Assembly (NCBI GenBank): GCA_918244965.1
Contig: CAKJYC010000010.1
Span: 1-35,959 of the forward strand
Source of the DNA: Clostridiales bacterium
Lineage (GTDB): Bacteria; Bacillota; Clostridia; Christensenellales; CAG-138
Length of the DNA stretch: 35,959 nucleotides
Direction of reading: 5' to 3'
Below the pieces are notes generated by a model. That model had not been told where the DNA came from, ran no database searches, and was given only the letters and a program-made list of their open reading frames with translations. A program made the translations under genes and the position numbers. Below, one piece after another: positions 10,719-24,266 of this stretch. Within the stretch, counting starts at the first letter, position 1. Each line of letters opens with the position of its first letter.

Positions 10719-13511
10719 ATGGGTTTTCTTCACGCGGTCTACCAACTGCTGATCGGACCGCTGCAGCTGATATATGAATTGATTTACTATTACGCACGCA
10801 TGCTCGCGAAAAGCTGGGGGCTTGCGATCATCGTGCTGAGCCTTGTCGTCAATTTCCTGCTGCTGCCGATGTACCGGCAGGCGGACGCTATTCAGGACAA
10901 GGAGCGCGAGGCGCAGAAGCGCATGGCTCCGTGGGTCAGGCACATCAAAAAGACCTTCTCCGGCAACGAGCGCTTCATGATGCTCCAGACCTATTACCGA
11001 CAGAACAACTATAAGCCGTACTATACGCTGCGCGGACTGCTGCCGCTCGTGCTGGAGATCCCGTTCTTCATGGCGGCGTACCGCTATCTGTCGGGTCTGT
11101 CGGGCCTGCAGGGGATCCCGTTCGGCATCATTTCGGACCTCAGCAAGCCGGATGCGCTTCTGCCGCTGTTCGGGCTTCGCATCAATGTGCTGCCGATCCT
11201 GATGACCGCGATCAACCTCATTTCGGGCGCGATCTACACGAAAGGCCTTCCCTGGAAGGACAAGCTGCAGCTGTACGGCATGGCGGGGCTGTTCCTGATT
11301 GTGCTGTACGATTCTCCGGCGGGACTTGTCGTCTACTGGACGATGAACAACCTGTTCTCGCTGGTCAAGAACATCATCGGCCGGCTGAAGAACCCGCGCC
11401 GGGCGAAGATCATCGTGTTCTCCGGCATCGGCGCGCTGTGCATCCTGCTGATGCTGATCTTCCCGAAGGCCGGCATACAGGACGTCCTGCCGCTTACCGC
11501 CATCGGCCTGCTGTTCCAGGTCCCGCTGCTGCGGTATCTCTGGCAGAAGCGCCCGAACAAAAAGCCGCGTCCCGCAAAGCCGGAAAAGGAATACCGGCCG
11601 CATCTTCTCACATTCCTCTGCGGCGGCGCCGCGCTGACGATCCTGACCGGCATACTGATCCCCTCGTCCGTGATCGCGTCCTCGCCGATCGAGTTCGTCG
11701 ACCTGACGGACTACCGGCATCCGATGATGCACATCCTGTACGCGTTTCTGCTGGCTGCCGGTCTGTTTCTGATCTGGTTCGGCCTGTTCTATTACCTGTC
11801 CGGCAAGAAGGGCCGCGAACGGTTCAGCATGATCGTGTCGATCATGGCTGTCGCTGCGGCGATCAACTACATGTTCTTCGGGACGGACCTCGGCACGCTC
11901 TCCGCGGAACTGAAGTTTGACGAGACGATGCTGCCCCATTTCTGGGAGTGCGTGATCAACACCGGCGTGCTGGCTGCGGTGGGCGTCGGCCTGTGGTTCG
12001 TATTCAAAAAGAGCAAGCATATCGTCGAGATCGCGCTCGCGTCGCTGTGCGTCGCGCTGGTCGGCATGTCGGTCATGAACATCGTCAAGATCCGCCGCGC
12101 CGATGCGGACATTCAGGCCGCGCGCAGAGGCGTGCAGAGCTCCGCCGAAGCGCTTCCTTCCGGCGACGGCAAGCTGATCACGCTCAGCAAAAACAAACAG
12201 AACGTCGTCGTCATCATGCTTGACCGTGCGATCGGCGGCTATGTGCCGTTCATTCTGCAGGAAAAACCGGAGCTTCGGGAGGCCTTCGACGGCTTCACCT
12301 ACTATCCGAACACCCTGTCGTTCGGCGGCAGCACGAACTTCGGCGCGCCCGCGCTGTTCGGCGGCTATGAATACACGCCCGACAACATCAACCGGCGCGA
12401 GACGGAAACGCTTGCCGACAAGCACGACGAGGCGCTGAAGGTGATGCCGGTCCTGTTCGACGAAAACGGCTGCGACGTGACCGTGATCGAGCCGCCGTAT
12501 GCGGGCTACAACTGGGTCCCGGATCTCAGCATCTTCGACGCCTACCCCGATATCCGCACATACAATGTCGAGCAGGGACAGATGTACACTGAGCCGATCG
12601 TCGCAAACACCGCCTCCATGAACGAGCGCTGGGAGCGCAACTTCTTCTGCTACAGCATCATGAAGGCCTCGCCGGTGCTGATCCAGGTCCCGATCTATCT
12701 GGAGGGGACGTACTTTGACTCGAACTCCAGCGTGCAGTACACGGTGGGCCTGTCCGAATCGCACGGCGTCAACGTCGCGTTCATGAACGCCTATTCCGTC
12801 ATGGAAAAGCTGTCCGACCTGACCGCCGCAGCGGAGACGGAGGGGAACACGTTTTTGATGATGAACAACAGCATGACGCATGAGCCGCAGATGCTGCAGA
12901 CGCCGGACTATGTTCCCGCGAACTGGGTGCGCAACGAGGAGTACGACGCGGCGCACGCGGACCGCTTCACGGTCAACGGCTACACGATGGAGATGAAGAC
13001 CTCCGAGCAGATGCGGCACTACCATGCCAACATCTCGGCGCTGCTGCGGCTTGCCGAGTGGTTCGACATGCTGCGGGAGCAGGGCGTGTACGACAACACG
13101 CGCTTCATCATCGTTTCGGATCACGCGCATTTTCTGAAGCAGTTCCCGGAGCTGATCCTCGGCCGCGGCCAGCGCGAGGACATGATGGGCTATAATCCGC
13201 TGCTGATGGTCAAGGACTTTGACAGCACGGGCTTCACGGTCGACGGCACGTTTATGACGAACGCCGACGTGCCGACCATCGCGTTTGCCGGCATCATCGA
13301 AAACCCGACGAACCCGTTCACCGGCAATCCGATCAACAGCGACGCAAAGGCGGGCGAGCAGTACGTCTTCTGCTCCGGCGACTGGGACATCGTCGAGAAC
13401 AACGGCAACACGTTCAAGCCGGGCCTTTGGTACGCGGTGCACGACAGCATCTTCGACCCGGACAACTGGACCAGACTCGGCCGCGGCGTCCTGCCGGAGG
13501 GCGCGGAATAA
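10719..13511 (+). CDS. YidC/Oxa1-like membrane domain fused to an alkaline-phosphatase/LTA-synthase-like domain (copy 1)
   Basis: The 930-residue protein starts with a YidC/Oxa1-type domain (about 1-230): LLIGPLQLIYE, VVNFLLLPMYR, a charged loop, YRQNNYKP, LPLVLEIPFFMAAYRYLSG and SPAGLVVYWTMNNLFSLVK. These follow the order of bacterial insertases. Further membrane helices fill about 230-470. From about 485 an alkaline-phosphatase-superfamily domain follows, with D502 in VVIMLDRAIG, candidate nucleophile T539 in GGSTNFGAP, and D801/H802 in IVSDHAH. This metal-ligand plus threonine layout matches phosphoglycerol and phosphoethanolamine transferases. Expected site: membrane, catalytic domain outside. 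It may insert or scaffold membrane proteins, or transfer a phospho-head group to a surface polymer. It has its own promoter and terminator. A paralogue of identical length lies at 21474. Confidence 0.85.
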   Translation: MGFLHAVYQLLIGPLQLIYELIYYYARMLAKSWGLAIIVLSLVVNFLLLPMYRQADAIQDKEREAQKRMAPWVRHIKKTFSGNERFMMLQTYYRQNNYKPYYTLRGLLPLVLEIPFFMAAYRYLSGLSGLQGIPFGIISDLSKPDALLPLFGLRINVLPILMTAINLISGAIYTKGLPWKDKLQLYGMAGLFLIVLYDSPAGLVVYWTMNNLFSLVKNIIGRLKNPRRAKIIVFSGIGALCILLMLIFPKAGIQDVLPLTAIGLLFQVPLLRYLWQKRPNKKPRPAKPEKEYRPHLLTFLCGGAALTILTGILIPSSVIASSPIEFVDLTDYRHPMMHILYAFLLAAGLFLIWFGLFYYLSGKKGRERFSMIVSIMAVAAAINYMFFGTDLGTLSAELKFDETMLPHFWECVINTGVLAAVGVGLWFVFKKSKHIVEIALASLCVALVGMSVMNIVKIRRADADIQAARRGVQSSAEALPSGDGKLITLSKNKQNVVVIMLDRAIGGYVPFILQEKPELREAFDGFTYYPNTLSFGGSTNFGAPALFGGYEYTPDNINRRETETLADKHDEALKVMPVLFDENGCDVTVIEPPYAGYNWVPDLSIFDAYPDIRTYNVEQGQMYTEPIVANTASMNERWERNFFCYSIMKASPVLIQVPIYLEGTYFDSNSSVQYTVGLSESHGVNVAFMNAYSVMEKLSDLTAAAETEGNTFLMMNNSMTHEPQMLQTPDYVPANWVRNEEYDAAHADRFTVNGYTMEMKTSEQMRHYHANISALLRLAEWFDMLREQGVYDNTRFIIVSDHAHFLKQFPELILGRGQREDMMGYNPLLMVKDFDSTGFTVDGTFMTNADVPTIAFAGIIENPTNPFTGNPINSDAKAGEQYVFCSGDWDIVENNGNTFKPGLWYAVHDSIFDPDNWTRLGRGVLPEGAE

Positions 13512-14063: not shown

Positions 14064-14096
14064 AATTATATTTCTTTTGTGCAAAGGGTGGATAAT

Positions 14097-14732
14097 ATGA
14101 AAAAATCTGATCTTCAAAAACCGATAAAAACGGTTTTGCATGATTACGGTTTTGTCCATACAAAAGGTGATGACTTTGCTTTCCTTGCCGGAGATCAAAA
14201 GACAAAGCTTGTGTTGCGTATTCCCGACGGAAGAAAAGGCTTTATTCTCGGTGCGCAGTTTTCCGATTTATATGCGTTTGACGGCATATTGGCTCATTCT
14301 GCCATGCTGCAATACGACCATGCGTATGATCTCGCTTACGGTTCCGTAAAGGAATATACTGTGGATGAAATCAAAACGGTGACAGAGCGGGTCATTTCTG
14401 ACTATGAACCGTACCGAATAAACGGTGCCTCAGAAATCGGCATGCGACTAAACGAATGGACTTTTGGCGACCTCGACGAACGAATCCGAGATATGCTATT
14501 GCGACACTTCGGACAAGCGGGGATCAATCCTTATTCCAAAGAGTATCTTTTGAAAAACGTCGAGGAGCTTTCCGCAAAAGGCGGCATGATGGTCTTGTCC
14601 GAGGAGGAATACGCTTCGCACAAGTCATTCTATGACAGATATGCCGAACACGGCGCTGAAATCGTCATGAAGAACAGTGCCAGAGAGGTCCATATTATAT
14701 TCCAACCAGCATCCAAATGGTATCAGCAATAA
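14097..14732 (+). CDS. Hypothetical protein, AT-richer than its neighbours
   Basis: I do not recognise this 211-residue protein. It has no signal peptide or membrane segment and reads as a mixed alpha/beta cytoplasmic protein. Visible features are a glycine-aspartate-rich start (HDYGFVHTKGDD), a tryptophan-containing NEWTFGDLDERI, and a C-terminus ending in FQPASKWYQQ. Small acidic proteins of this kind are sometimes immunity or antitoxin proteins, but nothing nearby proves that. Its codons use far more A and T than the flanking genes, which suggests recent acquisition. The ATG at 14097 follows AAGGGTGG; an in-frame start at 14079 would bury that site. It has a strong promoter of its own and is flanked by repeats on both sides. 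Confidence 0.7.
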   Translation: MKKSDLQKPIKTVLHDYGFVHTKGDDFAFLAGDQKTKLVLRIPDGRKGFILGAQFSDLYAFDGILAHSAMLQYDHAYDLAYGSVKEYTVDEIKTVTERVISDYEPYRINGASEIGMRLNEWTFGDLDERIRDMLLRHFGQAGINPYSKEYLLKNVEELSAKGGMMVLSEEEYASHKSFYDRYAEHGAEIVMKNSAREVHIIFQPASKWYQQ

Positions 14733-15900: not shown

Positions 15901-16791
15901 ATGGATCTGACCAGACGGCAGTTTGATCTGCTGGAGACGCTTGCGGAGGCCAAGGGAAGGCTGACGCAGCGCGAGATCTCCGAACGCACGGGACATTCGC
16001 TCGGCGGCGTCAACCGGACGATGCAGGAGCTGAAGGCGCAGGGACTCGTCGACGGGCGGACCGTCACGAAGGCGGGGCTTGACGCGCTGGAGCCGTATCG
16101 CGTGCGCCGCGCGGTGTTCATTGCGGCGGGGTTCGGTTCGCGGCTTGCGCCGATCACGCTGAACACGCCGAAGCCTCTGGTGCGCGTGCACGGCGTGCGC
16201 ATCATCGACACGCTGATCGACGCGTGCCTTGCCGCCGGGATCGGGGAGATCTGGATCGTGCGCGGTTATCTTGCCGAGCAGTTCGATCAGCTGCTGTACA
16301 AGTACCCGATGATCAGATTCCTTGAGAATCCGTTCTTCAACGAGGCGAACAACATTTCGAGCGCGCTCGTTGCGCGGCATCTTCTGAAGAACGCGTACGT
16401 GTTCGAGGCGGACCTGCTTCTGAGCAACCCGGCGGTGATCAAAAAGTATCACTATTCGTCGGAGTTTCTGGCGATCAAAAAGGACCGCACGGACGACTGG
16501 TGCTTCGACGTGAAGGACGGGATCATCACCGAGGAAAAGGTCGGCGGGCTCGACTGCTGGCAGATGGTGGGCATTTCGTACTGGAACGCGGAGGACGGCG
16601 AAAAGCTGTCCGCGGACATTCCGGACGTGTACGCCTCGCCGGGCGGCCGGGAGCGCTACTGGGAGCAGGTCCCGCTGGTGTTCCGCAAGGACCGCTACGC
16701 GGTCGGCGTGTGCCCGTGCTTCGACGAGGACATCGTTGAGATCGACACCTTCCGCGAGCTGAAGGCGATCGACAAGAGCTATAATGTTTGA
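15901..16791 (+). CDS. Winged-helix plus LicC/PntC-like nucleotidyltransferase
   Basis: The 296-residue protein has an N-terminal MarR-like winged-helix domain (about 1-65, RQFDLLETLAEAKGRLTQRE). A nucleotidyltransferase domain follows (about 70-296) with AAGFGSRLAPIT, TPKPLVRVHG, FEADLLLSNP and DDWCF. This set matches CTP:phosphocholine cytidylyltransferase LicC and the related 2-aminoethylphosphonate cytidylyltransferase PntC; sequence alone does not separate them. It would make a CDP-choline- or CMP-phosphonate-type activated head group in the cytoplasm. The winged helix may let the enzyme sense or control its own operon. The ATG at 15901 follows GGGAGAGGACAGG. It starts an operon with the importer genes, and its homologue is fused to the permease at 18744. 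Confidence 0.85.
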   Translation: MDLTRRQFDLLETLAEAKGRLTQREISERTGHSLGGVNRTMQELKAQGLVDGRTVTKAGLDALEPYRVRRAVFIAAGFGSRLAPITLNTPKPLVRVHGVRIIDTLIDACLAAGIGEIWIVRGYLAEQFDQLLYKYPMIRFLENPFFNEANNISSALVARHLLKNAYVFEADLLLSNPAVIKKYHYSSEFLAIKKDRTDDWCFDVKDGIITEEKVGGLDCWQMVGISYWNAEDGEKLSADIPDVYASPGGRERYWEQVPLVFRKDRYAVGVCPCFDEDIVEIDTFRELKAIDKSYNV

Positions 16792-16831: not shown

Positions 16832-17872
16832 ATGAAAAAGACGAAAAAGACTATGATCAGCCTGCTCGCAGCGATGCTCTGCGCAGTGCTTCTTCTGACG
16901 GGCTGCGGCGGCGCCGCGGCAAACAACAGCGGCAGCGCCAAGGCCGACCGCGTCGTGATCTATACGGCGGCGGAGGACGAGCGCATCGCGTATCTCCAGA
17001 CGGAGCTGGACAAACAGTTCCCCGACGTCGAGATCGTCATCCAGTCGCTCGGCACCGGTCAGCTGCTTTCCAAGCTGCAGGCCGAGGGCAAGAACAGCGA
17101 TTGCGACATCTTCTACGATCTGGAGGTCGTCAACGCGGAGATCATCCTGAACGCGTCGCCCGATCTGTTCGCGGACCTGTCCGCGTACGATTTCGGCGTC
17201 TATGATCCGTCCGTTACCGGCTACACCGAGCGGCACCATCAGTATGCCGTCAACGGCAAGACCGCCGGTGCGTTCCTGGTCAACACCAGGGTGCTCGAGG
17301 AGAAGGGTCTGCCCGTTCCCGAATCGTATGAGGACATGCTGAAGCCGGAATACAAGGGCCTGATCTCCATGCCGAGCCCGAAGTCCTCCGGCACGGGCTA
17401 CAGCTACTACAACGGCATGATCACCGTGCTCGGCGAGGAAGCCGGCATGGAATACTTTGCGGCGCTGAACCCGAACATCAAGGAGTACACGACCTCCGGC
17501 TCCGCGCCCGCCAAGGCGGCGGTCCGCGGCGACGTGGCGATCGCATACGGCCTGCTGTGGCAGTGCGTCAACTACGCGAACGAGAACGAGGGCATGACGG
17601 TCGTCGTTCCGGAGCAGGGGCTTGCGTTCGACCTGTTCACGATGGGCATGATCTCCGGCCACGAAACGAAGGAAAGCGTCAAGGCCGTGTTCGATTACCT
17701 GTACAACGTGATCAACAAGCCGCAGTGCGCCAAGTTCAACCCGGACAAGATCTATGCGGACATGCCGGCGGCCGAGATCGCAAACTACCCGACGGGCTAC
17801 AAGGAGATCACCATGAACGGCCTGTTCGATTTCCAGTACAAGCAGAACCTGCTGGATCGGTGGAGCTACTGA
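16832..17872 (+). CDS. ABC importer substrate-binding lipoprotein (iron / 2-aminoethylphosphonate type)
   Basis: The 346-residue protein has a lipoprotein signal ending LLLTGC, with C25 as the lipidated residue, so it sits on the outer face of the membrane. The mature part (VVIYTAAEDERIAYLQTEL, GAFLVNTRVLEEKGLPVPES, GDVAIAYGLLW) belongs to the extracellular binding-protein family of FbpA, IdiA and PhnS. This family takes ferric iron, 2-aminoethylphosphonate, thiamine or similar small ligands. The family's double-tyrosine iron-binding signature is not obvious, which leans away from iron, but this is not decisive. It lies 40 nt after the nucleotidyltransferase gene. A hairpin after it may leave it expressed above the ATPase and permease. 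Confidence 0.88.
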   Translation: MKKTKKTMISLLAAMLCAVLLLTGCGGAAANNSGSAKADRVVIYTAAEDERIAYLQTELDKQFPDVEIVIQSLGTGQLLSKLQAEGKNSDCDIFYDLEVVNAEIILNASPDLFADLSAYDFGVYDPSVTGYTERHHQYAVNGKTAGAFLVNTRVLEEKGLPVPESYEDMLKPEYKGLISMPSPKSSGTGYSYYNGMITVLGEEAGMEYFAALNPNIKEYTTSGSAPAKAAVRGDVAIAYGLLWQCVNYANENEGMTVVVPEQGLAFDLFTMGMISGHETKESVKAVFDYLYNVINKPQCAKFNPDKIYADMPAAEIANYPTGYKEITMNGLFDFQYKQNLLDRWSY

Positions 17873-17930: not shown

Positions 17931-17970
17931 TTCCGGCTTTATTTTGACACACGGAACAACGGAGGAATCT

Positions 17971-18747
17971 ATGGAAAACAACGATGCGGTCATCATCCGC
18001 TGTGAGAACATCTGCAAAAAATTCCGGTCAAAGACGGTGCTGGAGGACGTGTCCTTCACGGTCAACCGCGGGGAGTTTCTGTCGCTGCTCGGCCCGTCCG
18101 GCTGCGGCAAAACGACGATCCTGCGCATGCTGATCGGGATCGAGCATCCGACCAGCGGCAGAATCTTCAAGGACGGCCGGGACATCACCGACGCCGCGCC
18201 GAAGGACCGGAACATCGGGATCGTGTTCCAGAACTATTCGCTGTTCCCGAACATGGACGTGTATCACAACATCTCCTACGCGCTGCAGGCGAAGCACATG
18301 GAGAAGGACGAGATCCACAGAAAGGTCACGGAGATCATCGGGACCGTCGGGCTGGAGGAGCACATCTACAAGAAGCCCAAGCAGCTGTCCGGCGGCCAGC
18401 AGCAGCGCGTGGCGATCGCGCGCACGCTGGTCCTGAACCCCGACATCATCCTGTTCGACGAGCCGATGAGCGCGCTCGACGCCGAGATCAAGGTCGCGCT
18501 GCGCCAGCAGCTTAAGGCGATCCAGAAGAAGCTCAGAATCACGATGATCTACGTCACGCACGACCAGGAGGAGGCGTTTGCGCTGTCCGACCGCATCATG
18601 GTCCTGAACGATCTGAGAATCGCGCAGCTTGACACGCCGTACAATCTGTACCACCATCCCGCCGATCCGTTCGTAAAGCGGTTCGTCGTCGACCACCTGA
18701 ACCTGAAGGTCCGGAGCATCGAGGACAGCATAGGAGCCGACGTATGA
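17971..18747 (+). CDS. ABC importer ATP-binding protein
   Basis: The 258-residue ATPase has Walker A GPSGCGKTT, Q-loop VFQNYSLFP, signature LSGGQQQRVAIAR, Walker B IILFDEPMSALD and the switch histidine in VTHDQEEA. It is of the FbpC/PotA/PhnT type but shorter than most of these (usually 330 to 360 residues), because it lacks the C-terminal TOBE regulatory domain. It would energise uptake with the neighbouring lipoprotein and permease. The ATG at 17971 follows GGAGG; an in-frame ATG at 17944 has no such site. Its stop overlaps the permease start in ATGA, so the two are coupled. Confidence 0.93.
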   Translation: MENNDAVIIRCENICKKFRSKTVLEDVSFTVNRGEFLSLLGPSGCGKTTILRMLIGIEHPTSGRIFKDGRDITDAAPKDRNIGIVFQNYSLFPNMDVYHNISYALQAKHMEKDEIHRKVTEIIGTVGLEEHIYKKPKQLSGGQQQRVAIARTLVLNPDIILFDEPMSALDAEIKVALRQQLKAIQKKLRITMIYVTHDQEEAFALSDRIMVLNDLRIAQLDTPYNLYHHPADPFVKRFVVDHLNLKVRSIEDSIGADV

Positions 18748-21320
18748 AGCCGTTCTTCTCACGCTTCGGCAAATTCTTTCGGCACGAGTATCTGCGCCTG
18801 TTCTCGGTCGGATGCATCCTGCTGTTTGCGATCCTGCCGCTTGTGACGCTGGCCTTCCACATGACGGGGGAGGACTGGGCGTTCGTGCTGCGCGACGACA
18901 GCTTCTGGAGCGCGGTCAAGAACTCGCTGCTCTATACGGCGGTCTCCGCGATCATCACGACGCTGCTCGCGCTGATCGCGGCCTATCTGCTGCACACGTC
19001 GTCGCTTCGGCGAAAGAACCTCTTTGTGATCGCGCTGACGCTCGGCATGCTGGTGCCGACGATCTCGGTCGGGCTCGGACTGCGCGTTCTGTTCGGCACG
19101 AACGGATTTCTGGACATCCTGTTCGGCGCGGAGATCGAGGTGCGCGGCTTTGCCGGGCTTATCATGGGCTCGGTGATGACCTCGTTCCCGGCGACGTTCC
19201 TGATCCTGTACGACGCGCTGCAGTATGAGGACAAGGGCCCGTACGACGCGGCGAGCATCATGGGCATCAAGCGGACCTCGACGTTCTTCCGGCTGACCGT
19301 TCCGTACCTGCGCATCGCGCTGATCTCGGCGTTTTTCGCGTGCTTCACGCTGATCTTCGCCGATTACGGCATCCCAATGGAGATCGCGGGCAAGGTCAAG
19401 ACGCTGCCGATGTACCTGTACGACCAGTTCATGTCCTCGTTCCAGTACGGCCGCGGGAGCATCGCGGGCTTCGTCCTGCTGATCCCGGCGATCGTATCGT
19501 TCGTGTTCGACGTGATCTTCAAGGACCAGAGCGTTACCGAAAAGCAGAAGGCCCTGATCGCGACCGAAAAGCGGTTCAACCGGATCGCCGTCGCGGTCAT
19601 CGCGCTGCTGTGCATCGTGCTGTTTTTGCCGCAGCTGTCGTTCATCGCGCTGTCGTTCACCAAATCGTTCCCGAACGACCTCGGCTTCACCTTTGAGCAC
19701 GTCGCCAACATCTTTTCCAACACCTACGGCGTCGGGCTGACGCGCTATATCCTCAATTCACTGGAGCTTGCGGCGCTGACGGCGCTGACCGGCACCTGCT
19801 TTGCGTACCTGCTCGGCTATCTGTCCGTGCGCAAGACCGGCAGGATGGGCAAGGCGATCGACCTTCTGGCGCTGTCCACGATCGCGATCCCCGGTCTGGT
19901 CCTCGGCATCGGGTTCATCTTTCTGTTCAAGGGGACCAACGGCTCCTTTTACGGGACGATCCTGATCCTGATCGTCGTGAACGTGTTCCACTTCCTCGGC
20001 TCGCCGTACCTGCTGGCGAAGAACTGCCTGAACAAGATCAACAGCGAGTACGAGGTCATCGGCGAAACGCTCGGCATCCGCAAGGGCAAGATCATCCGCA
20101 AGGTGCTGATCCCGTCCTCGGTGTCGACGCTGGTCGAGATGTTCGCGTATTTCTTCCTGAACAGCATGATCACGATCTCGGCCGTGGCGTTTCTGTGCAC
20201 CTACGACAACCAGCCGCTGGCGATCCTGATCACGACGTATGAGAAGAACAGCAACTATGAGATGCAGAGCGTGATCTCGCTGATCATTCTGGTGCTGAAC
20301 ATCCTTGCCCGCCTGCTGTTTGCGGGGATCACGGCGCTGATCAACCGGCGCGGCAGCCGCGAGACGGAGGGCGGCGTCGGCCTCTCGCGCGACGAATTCG
20401 ATTTTCTGACCTATCTCGAACGCAGCGGACGGGGCGTCTATACGCAAAGACGCCTCTCCGACGAGCTGACGATCACGCTGCCGCACACGGCGAAGCTGAT
20501 GAAGGACCTGTCCGATCTCGATTATATCAACGAGATGGGCGACGGCAGCATCGAGATCAGCGAAAAGGGACGAAAGGCGCTTGAGCCGTACCGGGTCCGC
20601 AAGGCGATCATTTTGGCCGCGGGCTTCGGGCAAAGGCTTGCGCCGGTCACGCTCGATACGCCCAAGCCCCTGGTGCGGGTGAACGGCGTCCGCATCATCG
20701 ACACGCTGCTGGACGCGCTGATCCAAAAGGGCATCACGAACATCACGGTCGTCATCGGGTACAAGAAGGAGCAGTTTTACGCGCTGACGGAGAAGTATCC
20801 GACGCTGCACTTCATCGAGAATCCGGAATTCAATCTGGCGAACAACATCGGCTCGGCGGTCCATGCAATCGACCTGATCGACCGCTGCTACATCTGCGAG
20901 GCCGACCTGTACATCAGCAATCCGGACGTGATCAATACGTACGAATACCGGTCCAACTACCTCGGCGCAAAGGTCGCCGAGACAGACGACTGGTGCTTCA
21001 GGAAGCGCAACGGCTGCGTGTACGGCTATCAGCGCGGCGGCACCGACTGCTATCAGGCGTTCGGCATCTCCTACTGGGACGGCGAGGATTCGGAGAAGCT
21101 CAAGGCCGATCTCAGAAAGGTCTACGCGATGCGCGGCGGCAAGGAAAACCTGTGGGAGATGGTCCCGCTGCGCATCATGCGCAAGAACTACCGGCTGGAG
21201 ATCCGCAAATGCAGGAAGTCCGACATCCTTGAGATCGACAACTTCATCGAGCTGACGGCGGCCGATCCGAGCTACGCGAGGTATCCGGGCCACGAGGCCT
21301 TCAGTGGAAAAGGAAAATAA
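18744..21320 (+). CDS. ABC permease (two membrane domains) fused to winged-helix and LicC/PntC-like nucleotidyltransferase
   Basis: The 858-residue protein is a three-part fusion. Residues 1 to about 540 are a double permease of the FbpB/PhnUV type, with two six-helix halves. Each half has an ATPase-coupling loop: YDAASIMGIKRTSTFFRLTV and YEVIGETLGIRKGKIIRKV. Residues about 546-615 are a winged helix (RDEFDFLTYLERSGRGVYTQ). Residues about 618-858 are a nucleotidyltransferase with AAGFGQRLAPVT, TPKPLVRVNG, CEADLYISNP and DDWCF. The C-terminal two parts are homologous along their length to the separate protein at 15901, and the frame is open throughout. Import and CTP-activation of one substrate could thus be physically joined at the cytoplasmic face of the membrane. 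The start overlaps the ATPase stop (ATGA). Confidence 0.9.
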   Translation: MKPFFSRFGKFFRHEYLRLFSVGCILLFAILPLVTLAFHMTGEDWAFVLRDDSFWSAVKNSLLYTAVSAIITTLLALIAAYLLHTSSLRRKNLFVIALTLGMLVPTISVGLGLRVLFGTNGFLDILFGAEIEVRGFAGLIMGSVMTSFPATFLILYDALQYEDKGPYDAASIMGIKRTSTFFRLTVPYLRIALISAFFACFTLIFADYGIPMEIAGKVKTLPMYLYDQFMSSFQYGRGSIAGFVLLIPAIVSFVFDVIFKDQSVTEKQKALIATEKRFNRIAVAVIALLCIVLFLPQLSFIALSFTKSFPNDLGFTFEHVANIFSNTYGVGLTRYILNSLELAALTALTGTCFAYLLGYLSVRKTGRMGKAIDLLALSTIAIPGLVLGIGFIFLFKGTNGSFYGTILILIVVNVFHFLGSPYLLAKNCLNKINSEYEVIGETLGIRKGKIIRKVLIPSSVSTLVEMFAYFFLNSMITISAVAFLCTYDNQPLAILITTYEKNSNYEMQSVISLIILVLNILARLLFAGITALINRRGSRETEGGVGLSRDEFDFLTYLERSGRGVYTQRRLSDELTITLPHTAKLMKDLSDLDYINEMGDGSIEISEKGRKALEPYRVRKAIILAAGFGQRLAPVTLDTPKPLVRVNGVRIIDTLLDALIQKGITNITVVIGYKKEQFYALTEKYPTLHFIENPEFNLANNIGSAVHAIDLIDRCYICEADLYISNPDVINTYEYRSNYLGAKVAETDDWCFRKRNGCVYGYQRGGTDCYQAFGISYWDGEDSEKLKADLRKVYAMRGGKENLWEMVPLRIMRKNYRLEIRKCRKSDILEIDNFIELTAADPSYARYPGHEAFSGKGK

Positions 21321-21473: not shown

Positions 21474-24266
21474 ATGACGTTCTGGCATGCACTGTATCAG
21501 CTTTTGATCGGACCGCTCGAACTGCTGTTCGAGGTCATCTTTTCGTTGGCGAGCCATGTGATCCACAGCCCCGGCGCGGTCATCGTGGTTCTGAGCCTTG
21601 CCATGAACATCCTGGTGCTGCCGCTGTACCGGCGCGCGGACGCCATGCAGGCGGAGCAGCGGGACAAGGCGCTTCGCATGAAGCCGTGGGTCGATCACAT
21701 CAAAAAGACCTTCACCGGCGACGAGCGGTTCATGATCCTGCAAACCTATTACCGGCAGGCGGGCTACAAGCCGACCGACGCGCTGAAGGGCTCCGTTTCC
21801 CTGCTTTTGGAGGTCCCGTTCTTCATCGCGGCGTACCGCTTTCTGTCCGGGCTGACGCTGCTTTCGGGCGAGGCGTTCGGGCCGATCCGCGACCTCGGCG
21901 CGCCGGACGGGCTGCTTCAGATCGGCGGGCTTGCGATCAACGTGCTGCCGATCCTGATGACCGCGATCAACATCGTGTCCGCGGCGATCTACATGAAGGG
22001 CTTTCCGCTCAGGAGCAAGCTGCAGACGTACGGCATGGCGCTCGTCTTTTTGGTGCTGCTGTACGGCTCGCCCGCGGGGCTCGTCTTTTACTGGACGCTG
22101 AACAACGTCTTTTCCCTTGTCAAGAACATCTTCTATAAGCTGAAGCATCCGAAGCGCGTGCTGGCGATCCTGTGCGCCGCGATCGGCGCGCTGGGGCTCG
22201 GCTTCGTCCTGTTCGTGCATCCGATGCGCACGCTGCGCCGACAGCTTTTGCTGATCGCCGCGCTGCTCGTGCTGTTCGTGCCGCTTGCGTGGGAGCTGCT
22301 TTCCGGATACCTGCGCAAAAAACGCGCGGCGAAGGGGATCGCGCAAAAGCCCGCGACGGCGCCGGACCGCGCCGAATCGCGCGCGTTCCTGTACGGCTGC
22401 ATCTTTCTCGCGCTTCTGACGGGGCTTCTGATCCCGTCCGCGATCGTGCATGCGTCGCCGGAGGAGTTCATCAACGCGTATGTCTACCGCCATCCGCTCT
22501 GGTATATCGTGAGCGCCATGCTCCTTGCCGTCGGCACGTTCGTGATCTGGTTCGGCATCTTTTACCGCCTGCAGGGACCGAAGGGCAAGCGGATCATGGG
22601 GCTGTCGGTGTGGATCCTGTCCGTGTGCGCGGCGGTAAACTATCTGTTCTTCGGCAAGAGCCACGGCAACCTCTCCGAGATGCTGCAGTACGACGTCTAC
22701 AACGCGCCGTCGCATAAGGAGATGCTGATCAATCTGCTCGTGCTCGCCGCGCTTGCGGCCGTGCTGTGGCTTATCTGGAGGAAAAAGAAGGCGATCGTGC
22801 GCTATGCCGCGCTGACGATGTGCCTTGCGGTCGCGGGGCTCGGCATGTGGAACGTCATACAGATCGGGACGGCGGTCGCGGATGCGACCGGGCGTTACGC
22901 GCAGGAGACCGAGATCCCGGAGATCACGCTGAGCAAGACCGGCAAAAACGTGGTCGTGATCATGCTGGACCGCGCGATCGGCGCGTATGTGCCGTTCTAC
23001 ATGGAGGAAAAGCCGGAGCTCAAGGAAGCGTTCGCGGGCTTTACGTTCTATCCGAACACGCTTGCGTACGGCGGAGCGACGCTCATCGGCGCGCCGCCCA
23101 TCTTCGGCGGCTATGAATACCGGCCCGCAAAGATCCAGGTGCGCGAGGACAAAACGCTGGTCGAAAAGCACGACGAGGCGCTGAAGGTCCTTCCGGTGCT
23201 GTTTTCGCAGAACGGCTATCGCGTCACCTTCAGTGATCCGCCGCTGGCGGGGTACGGCTGGACGCCGGACCTCACGGTGTTCGACGATCATCCGGAGTTC
23301 ACCGTGTTCAACGCGATGGGCAAGCTGACGGAGGACCCCTTCGATCGTGCGGAGGCGATCCATGCGGCGCGTGACCGGAACTTCTTCTGCTACAGCGTCT
23401 ACCGGATCGTGCCGGTGATCGCGCAGTCCACGCTGTACAACCGCGGACAGTACAATGCGCTTTCCCTTGACAGCGGCGGACGAACGGCGGCGGGACAGAA
23501 GCGCGACGGCATTTCCAGGGCAAAGGGACTGTCCGAACCGTTTCTGCAGTCGTACTCGGTGCTGGAAAGCCTGCCGCTGCTGACAAAGACGGTCGACGAA
23601 GGCGACACGCTTCTGCTGATGAGCAACGACCTTACGCACTACGGCAATATCCTGCAGGAGCCGGACTATGAGCCGCTGCTCGCCGTGGACAACACGGAAT
23701 ACGACAAGGCGCATCCGACCCGGACCTCGTGGGACGGAAAGGTGATCCGGCTGACCACGCTGAGCCACGTGCTGCATTACCACGCGGGCATGGCCGCGCT
23801 GCTCCGCCTCGGCGACTGGATGGACTATCTGCGCGAGCAAGGTCTCTACGACAACACGCGCATCATCCTCGTGTCGGACCACGGACATGTGCAGGACAAT
23901 TTCGAGGACGCGTGGTTCGGCGAAGAGGATTGGGAGAACGTTCTGCGATTCAACGCGCTGCTGATGGTGAAGGATTTCGACAGCAGGACGTTCACGGTCG
24001 ATCCGCAGTTCATGACGCACGCCGACGTGCCGACGCTCGCGCTGCGCGGGCTGATCGAAAACCCGGTCAATCCGTTTACGGGGAACCCGATCGACGACGC
24101 GGGCAAGAACGATCCGGTGCAGTACATCCGGCAGACCGGACCGACGAACGTTCCCGGCATCAAGAACCGGTACCGGTTCGACGGGCTGTGGGTCCGCTTT
24201 GAGGGACACGAGCTTTTCGACATCAGCAAATGGAAGACGCTCGGCGAAGCGCTGCCGGCGGAATAA
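21474..24266 (+). CDS. YidC/Oxa1-like membrane domain fused to an alkaline-phosphatase/LTA-synthase-like domain (copy 2)
   Basis: This is a 930-residue paralogue of the protein at 10719, with the same order of domains. The YidC-like part (about 1-230) has LLIGPLELLFEV, SLAMNILVLPLYR, LEVPFFIAAYRFLSG and SPAGLVFYWTLNNVFSLVK. More membrane helices follow, then the phosphatase-fold domain from about 480. Key residues are conserved: D499 in VVIMLDRAIG, T536 in GGATLIGAP, and D802/H803 in LVSDHGH. The flanking GGYEYxP motif is shared too. Expected site: membrane, with the catalytic domain outside. The ATG at 21474 aligns with the start of copy 1 and has AGGAG upstream; an in-frame ATG at 21381 lies within the promoter. 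The CDP-glycerol transferase-like gene starts 12 nt later. Confidence 0.85.
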   Translation: MTFWHALYQLLIGPLELLFEVIFSLASHVIHSPGAVIVVLSLAMNILVLPLYRRADAMQAEQRDKALRMKPWVDHIKKTFTGDERFMILQTYYRQAGYKPTDALKGSVSLLLEVPFFIAAYRFLSGLTLLSGEAFGPIRDLGAPDGLLQIGGLAINVLPILMTAINIVSAAIYMKGFPLRSKLQTYGMALVFLVLLYGSPAGLVFYWTLNNVFSLVKNIFYKLKHPKRVLAILCAAIGALGLGFVLFVHPMRTLRRQLLLIAALLVLFVPLAWELLSGYLRKKRAAKGIAQKPATAPDRAESRAFLYGCIFLALLTGLLIPSAIVHASPEEFINAYVYRHPLWYIVSAMLLAVGTFVIWFGIFYRLQGPKGKRIMGLSVWILSVCAAVNYLFFGKSHGNLSEMLQYDVYNAPSHKEMLINLLVLAALAAVLWLIWRKKKAIVRYAALTMCLAVAGLGMWNVIQIGTAVADATGRYAQETEIPEITLSKTGKNVVVIMLDRAIGAYVPFYMEEKPELKEAFAGFTFYPNTLAYGGATLIGAPPIFGGYEYRPAKIQVREDKTLVEKHDEALKVLPVLFSQNGYRVTFSDPPLAGYGWTPDLTVFDDHPEFTVFNAMGKLTEDPFDRAEAIHAARDRNFFCYSVYRIVPVIAQSTLYNRGQYNALSLDSGGRTAAGQKRDGISRAKGLSEPFLQSYSVLESLPLLTKTVDEGDTLLLMSNDLTHYGNILQEPDYEPLLAVDNTEYDKAHPTRTSWDGKVIRLTTLSHVLHYHAGMAALLRLGDWMDYLREQGLYDNTRIILVSDHGHVQDNFEDAWFGEEDWENVLRFNALLMVKDFDSRTFTVDPQFMTHADVPTLALRGLIENPVNPFTGNPIDDAGKNDPVQYIRQTGPTNVPGIKNRYRFDGLWVRFEGHELFDISKWKTLGEALPAE

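Follow-up and report, generated by a model that had tools for sequence, protein, structure and literature searches.

A PhnU2-like ABC permease fused to a winged-helix cytidylyltransferase-like enzyme: a putative import-and-activate transporter of gut and rumen bacteria

Introduction

Can the uptake of a phosphonate and its activation as a CMP conjugate be served by a single polypeptide? The question is raised by a contig of a Clostridiales bacterium (CAG-138; GCA_918244965.1, CAKJYC010000010.1, positions 1-35,959 of the forward strand; this whole stretch of 35,959 nucleotides is hereafter the window), in which the reading frame of an ABC importer permease continues into a winged helix and a nucleotidyltransferase of the LicC/PntC type. 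The frame, conservation, residues, genomic context and origin of the fusion are considered below, together with the cargo and the mode of action that they suggest.

The fused protein and its operon

The fusion gene begins with ATG and contains no internal stop, and its domains are those described in an earlier note on this DNA, which had reported a permease, a winged helix and a CTP-type enzyme in one continuous frame (Table 1). BPD_transp_1 matches the permease part in two stretches with 68.3 bits (Pfam gathering score 26.4), as in type I ABC importer permeases, and its best NCBIfam match is nearly full length (TIGR03262, PhnU2; residues 43-537) at 307.7 bits, below the curated equivalog cut-off of 593. 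The nucleotidyltransferase part passes the gathering scores of PF12804 (36.0 versus 27) and PF00483 (43.8 versus 21.2), and these scores, together with the catalytic residues, assign it to the LicC/PntC type. No in-frame start codon able to yield a separate enzyme is found between residues 517 and 586 in the window. Beyond the second EAA-type loop (approximately residues 437-459) there are two more hydrophobic segments, so that type I permease topology would place the permease C-terminus in the cytoplasm. Uptake and putative activation sit in one polypeptide.

Table 1. The fusion protein, its parts and the neighbouring genes of the import operon in the window.
Feature	Coordinates	Strand	Description
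Fusion protein	18744..21320	+	858 aa; PhnU2-like double permease, linker, winged helix and LicC/PntC-like nucleotidyltransferase
Permease part	18744..20348	+	Residues 1-535; two BPD_transp_1 halves, ~12 hydrophobic segments
Linker	20349..20387	+	~Residues 536-548; short, variable
Winged-helix domain	20388..20579	+	~Residues 549-612; recognition-helix motif lost
Cytidylyltransferase-like domain	20595..21317	+	Residues 618-858
ABC ATPase	17944..18747	+	PhnT2-like protein of 267 aa that lacks the PhnT2 C-terminal domain
Substrate-binding lipoprotein	16832..17872	+	PhnS2/SBP_bac_6 type
Standalone nucleotidyltransferase	15901..16791	+	Winged-helix paralog sharing 50% identity with the fused C-terminal part

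At the boundary of the ATPase and fusion genes, stop and start overlap by 4 bases. The best NCBIfam models for the lipoprotein, ATPase and permease are PhnS2, PhnT2 and PhnU2 of a putative 2-aminoethylphosphonate (AEP) importer, the first two again at scores below the curated equivalog cut-offs (174.5 versus 392.75 bits for PhnS2, 332.3 versus 457.7 for PhnT2). The PDB relatives of the lipoprotein include P5PA (6wce) and AfuA (4r72), the latter a sugar-phosphate binder. The standalone paralog contains a MarR_2 match at 1e-12, and relatives of it at 54-77% identity occur in 17 of the 18 genomes that carry the fusion, the window's own included. PntC-like enzymes of this kind with a MarR-type domain appear to form an undescribed family, which may regulate its own operon.

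The surroundings of the operon contain further unusual proteins. At 10719-13511 and 21474-24266, two YidC/Oxa1-like domains are fused to a sulfatase-fold (lipoteichoic-acid-synthase-like) domain; these two proteins lie on either side of the import operon and share 49% identity, and in other genomes their relatives adjoin the standalone enzyme. At another fused locus (L060, 10407-12521), a CDP-glycerol glycerophosphotransferase domain is joined to a YidC-like one, and YidC-like domains seem to be recurrent partners of teichoic-acid-type enzymes. The 217-aa protein at 14079-14732 has no match in Pfam or NCBIfam.

Distribution and conservation of the fusion

When 84,980 species genomes were scanned with the winged-helix/enzyme alignment, 16 fused loci (L048-L063) were recovered at 63-82% identity, set well apart from the remaining matches (50% or less), and in each of the 16 the enzyme runs in frame with the permease, the join being free of stop codons. 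Three of these proteins (L053, L061 and L063) are cut by contig ends, all three spanning the junction. A genome from another family of the same order (G390) is the seventeenth further carrier, so that the occurrence of the same fusion elsewhere, which the earlier note had left as a point to check, is established in 17 independent assemblies. Over the aligned length, the fused proteins are 62-81% identical to that of the window. The fusion is rare, evenly drawn samples of the order and of the class returning only G390 and the window, and a plasmid search recovered distant PhnU2 permeases only, with no fusion among them.

Pairwise dN/dS, which gives rough figures because synonymous sites are near saturation, is ~0.09 for the permease, ~0.51 for the linker, ~0.15 for the winged helix and ~0.08 for the enzyme. 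The linker is the fastest-evolving part of the fusion, and purifying selection acts on all three domains.

The cytidylyltransferase-like domain

A profile of the winged-helix enzymes compared with solved structures ranked LicC first (E 8e-32) and PntC second. The AlphaFold2 model of residues 544-858 (mean pLDDT 94), in which the winged helix comprises three helices and a wing, superimposes on LicC with a TM-score of 0.91 (normalised to LicC) at 29% identity, with PntC the next closest; the full-length model (pLDDT 52) was too poor for use. Among the 17 aligned fused sequences, R631, K641, E719, D721, W750, W804, E805, E830 and D832 are invariant. In LicC numbering, taken from the profile alignment to solved structures, the metal ligands and signature residues, including the equivalents of D107, E216 and the signature Lys/Arg, are likewise invariant.

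The residues at the amine-binding positions bear on the cargo. According to Rice et al. 2019 (PMC6697681), the residues facing the amine in the AEP-specific Tde-PntC are Glu104 and Glu196; the corresponding residues of phosphocholine-specific LicC are Asp105 and Asp192, and the paper names an aromatic choline box of LicC. E719 and E805 give a Glu at both positions in 17/17 aligned fused sequences, as in PntC, the equivalence of E805 to Glu196 being mapped via LicC D192 and not by direct PntC alignment. The sampled enzymes adjoining a PEP mutase likewise have Glu/Glu, and standalone enzymes adjoining importers often have Asp, not Glu, at the LicC D192 position. LicC Tyr190, which we take to be part of the aromatic choline box, is replaced in the fused clade by L803 (Phe in one of the 17 sequences), so that the fused enzymes have Glu, Glu and Leu where LicC has Asp, Asp and Tyr; the Tyr is found in 39 of 43 standalone enzymes. 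Further clade-specific substitutions, R797 among them, lie near the expected amine pocket, and together with L803 they suggest that the fused enzyme and the standalone paralog may act on different substrates.

Genomic context and the substrate

The context of the unfused enzymes was counted over 64 standalone loci. At 19 of them the neighbour is a PEP mutase, nearly always accompanied by a class V (AEP-type) transaminase and a phosphonopyruvate decarboxylase; another 18 adjoin this type of importer, and the rest adjoin neither. PEP mutase and importer are together at 0/64 loci, versus 5.3 expected (hypergeometric P 0.0005). The same pattern holds genome-wide among the unfused relatives, with a PEP mutase in 1/17 importer genomes versus 17/32 others (Fisher P 0.0014; the 110-120-bit matches in G040 and G063, outside both groups, were not scored as PEP mutase). 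Such a make-or-import pattern is expected if the enzymes use one compound, and the genes associated with PEP mutase make AEP. Among the fused genomes, LicD is present in 15/18, versus 33/151 in the window's order (Fisher P 3e-7), with the reservation that some fused genomes may belong to other orders. This context points to AEP or a close analogue as the probable substrate of the fusion.

Phosphocholine was considered as cargo and is disfavoured by the Glu/Glu pair, by Leu at the Tyr190 position and by the general absence of choline kinase, PF01633 exceeding its cut-off in just 2/18 fused genomes, where a LicA would be expected in a LicC pathway.

Several observations weigh against the AEP reading. 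If the fused and the standalone enzyme share one reaction, their coexistence in 17 of 18 genomes is unexplained; the importer proteins all score under the curated NCBIfam cut-offs; and a PEP mutase cluster is also present in the window's own genome. The clade-specific substitutions near the amine pocket, and the Asp that importer-adjoining standalone enzymes often have at the LicC D192 position, count on the same side.

No Ppm was found beside the fused loci. A PEP mutase over cut-off is present in 6/18 fused genomes, including that of the window, which implies that import can coexist with synthesis. As for the paralogs, either they divide the work, one serving a membrane pool and the other a soluble one, or a related phosphonate is the fused enzyme's substrate.

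The separate phosphonate cluster of the window's genome (L155, G000:C62, 5411-14333) lies inside a polysaccharide locus and encodes a LicD, a sulfatase, an Fe-alcohol dehydrogenase, a TPP enzyme (phosphonopyruvate-decarboxylase-like), an NTP_transf_5 protein and a 669-aa protein with NTP transferase, cytidylyltransferase-like and PEP mutase domains.

The strongest alternative is that the same machine handles another cargo, such as phosphoethanolamine, hydroxyethylphosphonate, N-methyl-AEP or a sugar or polyol phosphate, with the standalone paralog as the true AEP enzyme. L803, the other clade-specific substitutions and the coexistence of the two enzymes speak for it, as do the pyridoxal-5-phosphate-binding protein and AfuA among the relatives of the binding protein and the TagF-like and sulfatase-fold enzymes nearby. 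Against these stand the match of Glu719 and Glu805 to PntC, the AEP annotation of the importer family and the complementary pattern of unfused relatives with AEP synthesis genes, and we regard a different cargo as a possibility to be taken seriously, yet the less likely one.

Proposed mechanism

We read the fusion, with some confidence, as an ABC transporter that would both import and activate AEP, or a close analogue of it, for the tailoring of the cell surface with phosphonate. The lipoprotein encoded at 16832 would capture the phosphonate, and the ATPase encoded at 17944 would power its passage through the single-chain double permease. The cytidylyltransferase on the cytoplasmic C-terminus of the permease would then join the phosphonate to CMP from CTP, presumably trapping the substrate beside the pore in an activated form that surface phosphotransferases, e.g. 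LicD or teichoic-acid-type enzymes, could use as donor. Since each complex would contain one double permease, there would be one enzyme per transporter. Import followed at once by CMP transfer at the cytoplasmic face would explain the gene order, conservation and context together.

The earlier note had read the locus as import and cytidylyl activation in one chain, with substrate passing from pore to active site. The first part is now the best reading of the genomic context and of the conserved fusion, with import still powered by a separate ABC ATPase. A vectorial, group-activating importer, with direct hand-over from pore to active site, a cytoplasmic product that is mainly the CMP conjugate, and activation that affects transport, is a more speculative proposal, which we consider rather doubtful.

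It is improbable that the C-terminal part serves chiefly as a sensor, controlling the gate of the transporter through bound CTP or product (trans-inhibition), with catalysis in a minor role. In favour of a sensor, the enzyme is attached to the permease, and the ATPases of this importer family all lack the C-terminal domain of PhnT2; against it, unfused systems have short ATPases too, all catalytic residues are retained, and the enzyme has the lowest dN/dS. The loss of the ATPase regulatory domain was rejected as a mark of the fusion, ATPases being equally short in unfused systems.

The winged helix

The standalone enzymes likewise carry the winged helix at their N-terminus, and it was thus not acquired with the fusion. 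The recognition-helix motif of the standalone paralogs (S-[LVI]-[GA]-x-x-N-[KRH]) is found in 38/43 standalone enzymes versus 2/18 fused proteins (L061 and L063), the others lacking this MarR-like DNA-binding signature. No Pfam HTH match is found in the window's fused protein. The domain would have been carried along in the fusion and would then have lost its DNA-reading face, and is regarded here as a structural remnant, which perhaps offers a dimer or docking surface. In one fused protein (L062, 6995-7279), the winged helix has a ~19-residue insert and altered sequence, as if the domain were decaying.

The suggestion of the earlier note that the winged helix brings operon DNA to the membrane is accordingly not borne out, since loss of the motif in 16 of 18 fused proteins makes DNA tethering unlikely. 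A membrane-tethered regulator coupling transport to transcription finds a precedent in the standalone paralogs, whose MarR-type winged helix has an intact recognition-helix motif, but with the motif retained solely in the two earliest-branching fused proteins and the L062 domain disrupted by its insert, this reading is very improbable.

Origin of the fusion

In unfused systems, the gene order is SBP-ATPase-permease-enzyme, and the enzyme gene lies directly behind the permease gene at 21 loci (20 distinct, the junctions of L112 and L135 being identical). The start of the unfused enzyme gene lies at -23 to +27 nt relative to the end of the permease gene and is nearly always in a different frame from its permease. 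All fused permeases group together in a single clade (support 100), in which L061 and L063 branch first (support 97), and a single clade likewise unites the fused enzymes (support 92). L061 and L063 retain a Met where the standalone enzymes start, as well as the motif SLGTVNK, both lost in most other fused proteins. The trees show a single origin of the fusion, which probably arose from an operon with the enzyme gene directly after the permease gene; the two genes would first have been neighbours in an operon and would then have fused, the start codon and the DNA-reading helix being lost afterwards.

No unfused permease closer than 41% identity to the fused clade was found in 396 genomes of the order, placing the direct unfused ancestor outside the sample. 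The nearest unfused enzyme (L129) has no importer beside it. A 590-aa protein (L156, 6903-8675), encoded in the vicinity of the unfused enzyme most closely related to the fused one, has a winged-helix nucleotidyltransferase-like start followed by a further region.

An assembly or frameshift artefact, for which one might cite distant relatives whose two genes overlap at their ends and lie in different frames, is rejected with near certainty, 18 genomes of independent assemblies, 17 of them beyond the window, having the same in-frame join, with sequence conserved through it and no start codon in the linker. This, with the dN/dS values, settles the concern raised earlier about a joined frameshift at 20340-20400; the related idea that all relatives might have separate genes fails for the 17 fused relatives and is true of the more distant ones.

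Relation to known systems

The fused enzyme shares fold and catalytic residues with PntC, the CTP:2-aminoethylphosphonate cytidylyltransferase (Ari1348, Tde1415), and also the Glu/Glu pair at LicC positions 105/192; of its 64 standalone relatives, 19 adjoin Ppm, mostly with Ppd and an AEP-type transaminase. It differs in its winged helix and ABC permease, and its identity to Tde-PntC is ~19% across the aligned stretch. Phosphonate-pathway nucleotidyltransferases are often fused themselves, to AEP transaminase or Ppm (PMC6697681). The closest solved structure is LicC, the CTP:phosphocholine cytidylyltransferase (1jyk, 1jyl), from which the fused enzyme differs by Glu for Asp105 and Asp192, Leu for Tyr190 and the attached permease, and by the lack of a choline kinase over cut-off in 16/18 fused genomes. 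The putative AEP importer PhnS2-PhnT2-PhnU2 (TIGR03261, TIGR03265, TIGR03262) has the same three components, including a single-chain double permease, whereas the present system has sub-cut-off scores, a short ATPase and an enzyme-bearing permease. PTS Enzyme II also combines a transport protein and a modifying domain in one chain. In PTS group translocation, phosphorylation is coupled to transport, whereas here ATP hydrolysis by a separate ATPase would drive import and modification would come afterwards. No ABC permease fused to a substrate-activating nucleotidyltransferase was found in the open-access literature, and the fusion is a new joint arrangement of known parts.

Ecology and significance

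The carriers of the fusion are a small group of gut and rumen bacteria. By hand count from record titles, 14/16 database fused loci are from ruminant samples versus 23/64 non-fused (Fisher P 2e-4), an excess that may be sampling bias since ruminant metagenomes are over-represented in the database. AEP has served as a marker of rumen protozoa, and also occurs in bacteria and feed (PMC4659874).

The fusion would link phosphonate uptake and cytidylyl activation in one chain and, should the hand-over prove direct, would represent transport-coupled activation of a kind that we have not found described for ABC importers in the open-access literature. Judging from the wider family, many gut bacteria may decorate their surface with imported rather than self-made AEP. 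Such salvage would complement synthesis via PEP mutase and might be supplied in the rumen by AEP-rich protozoa.
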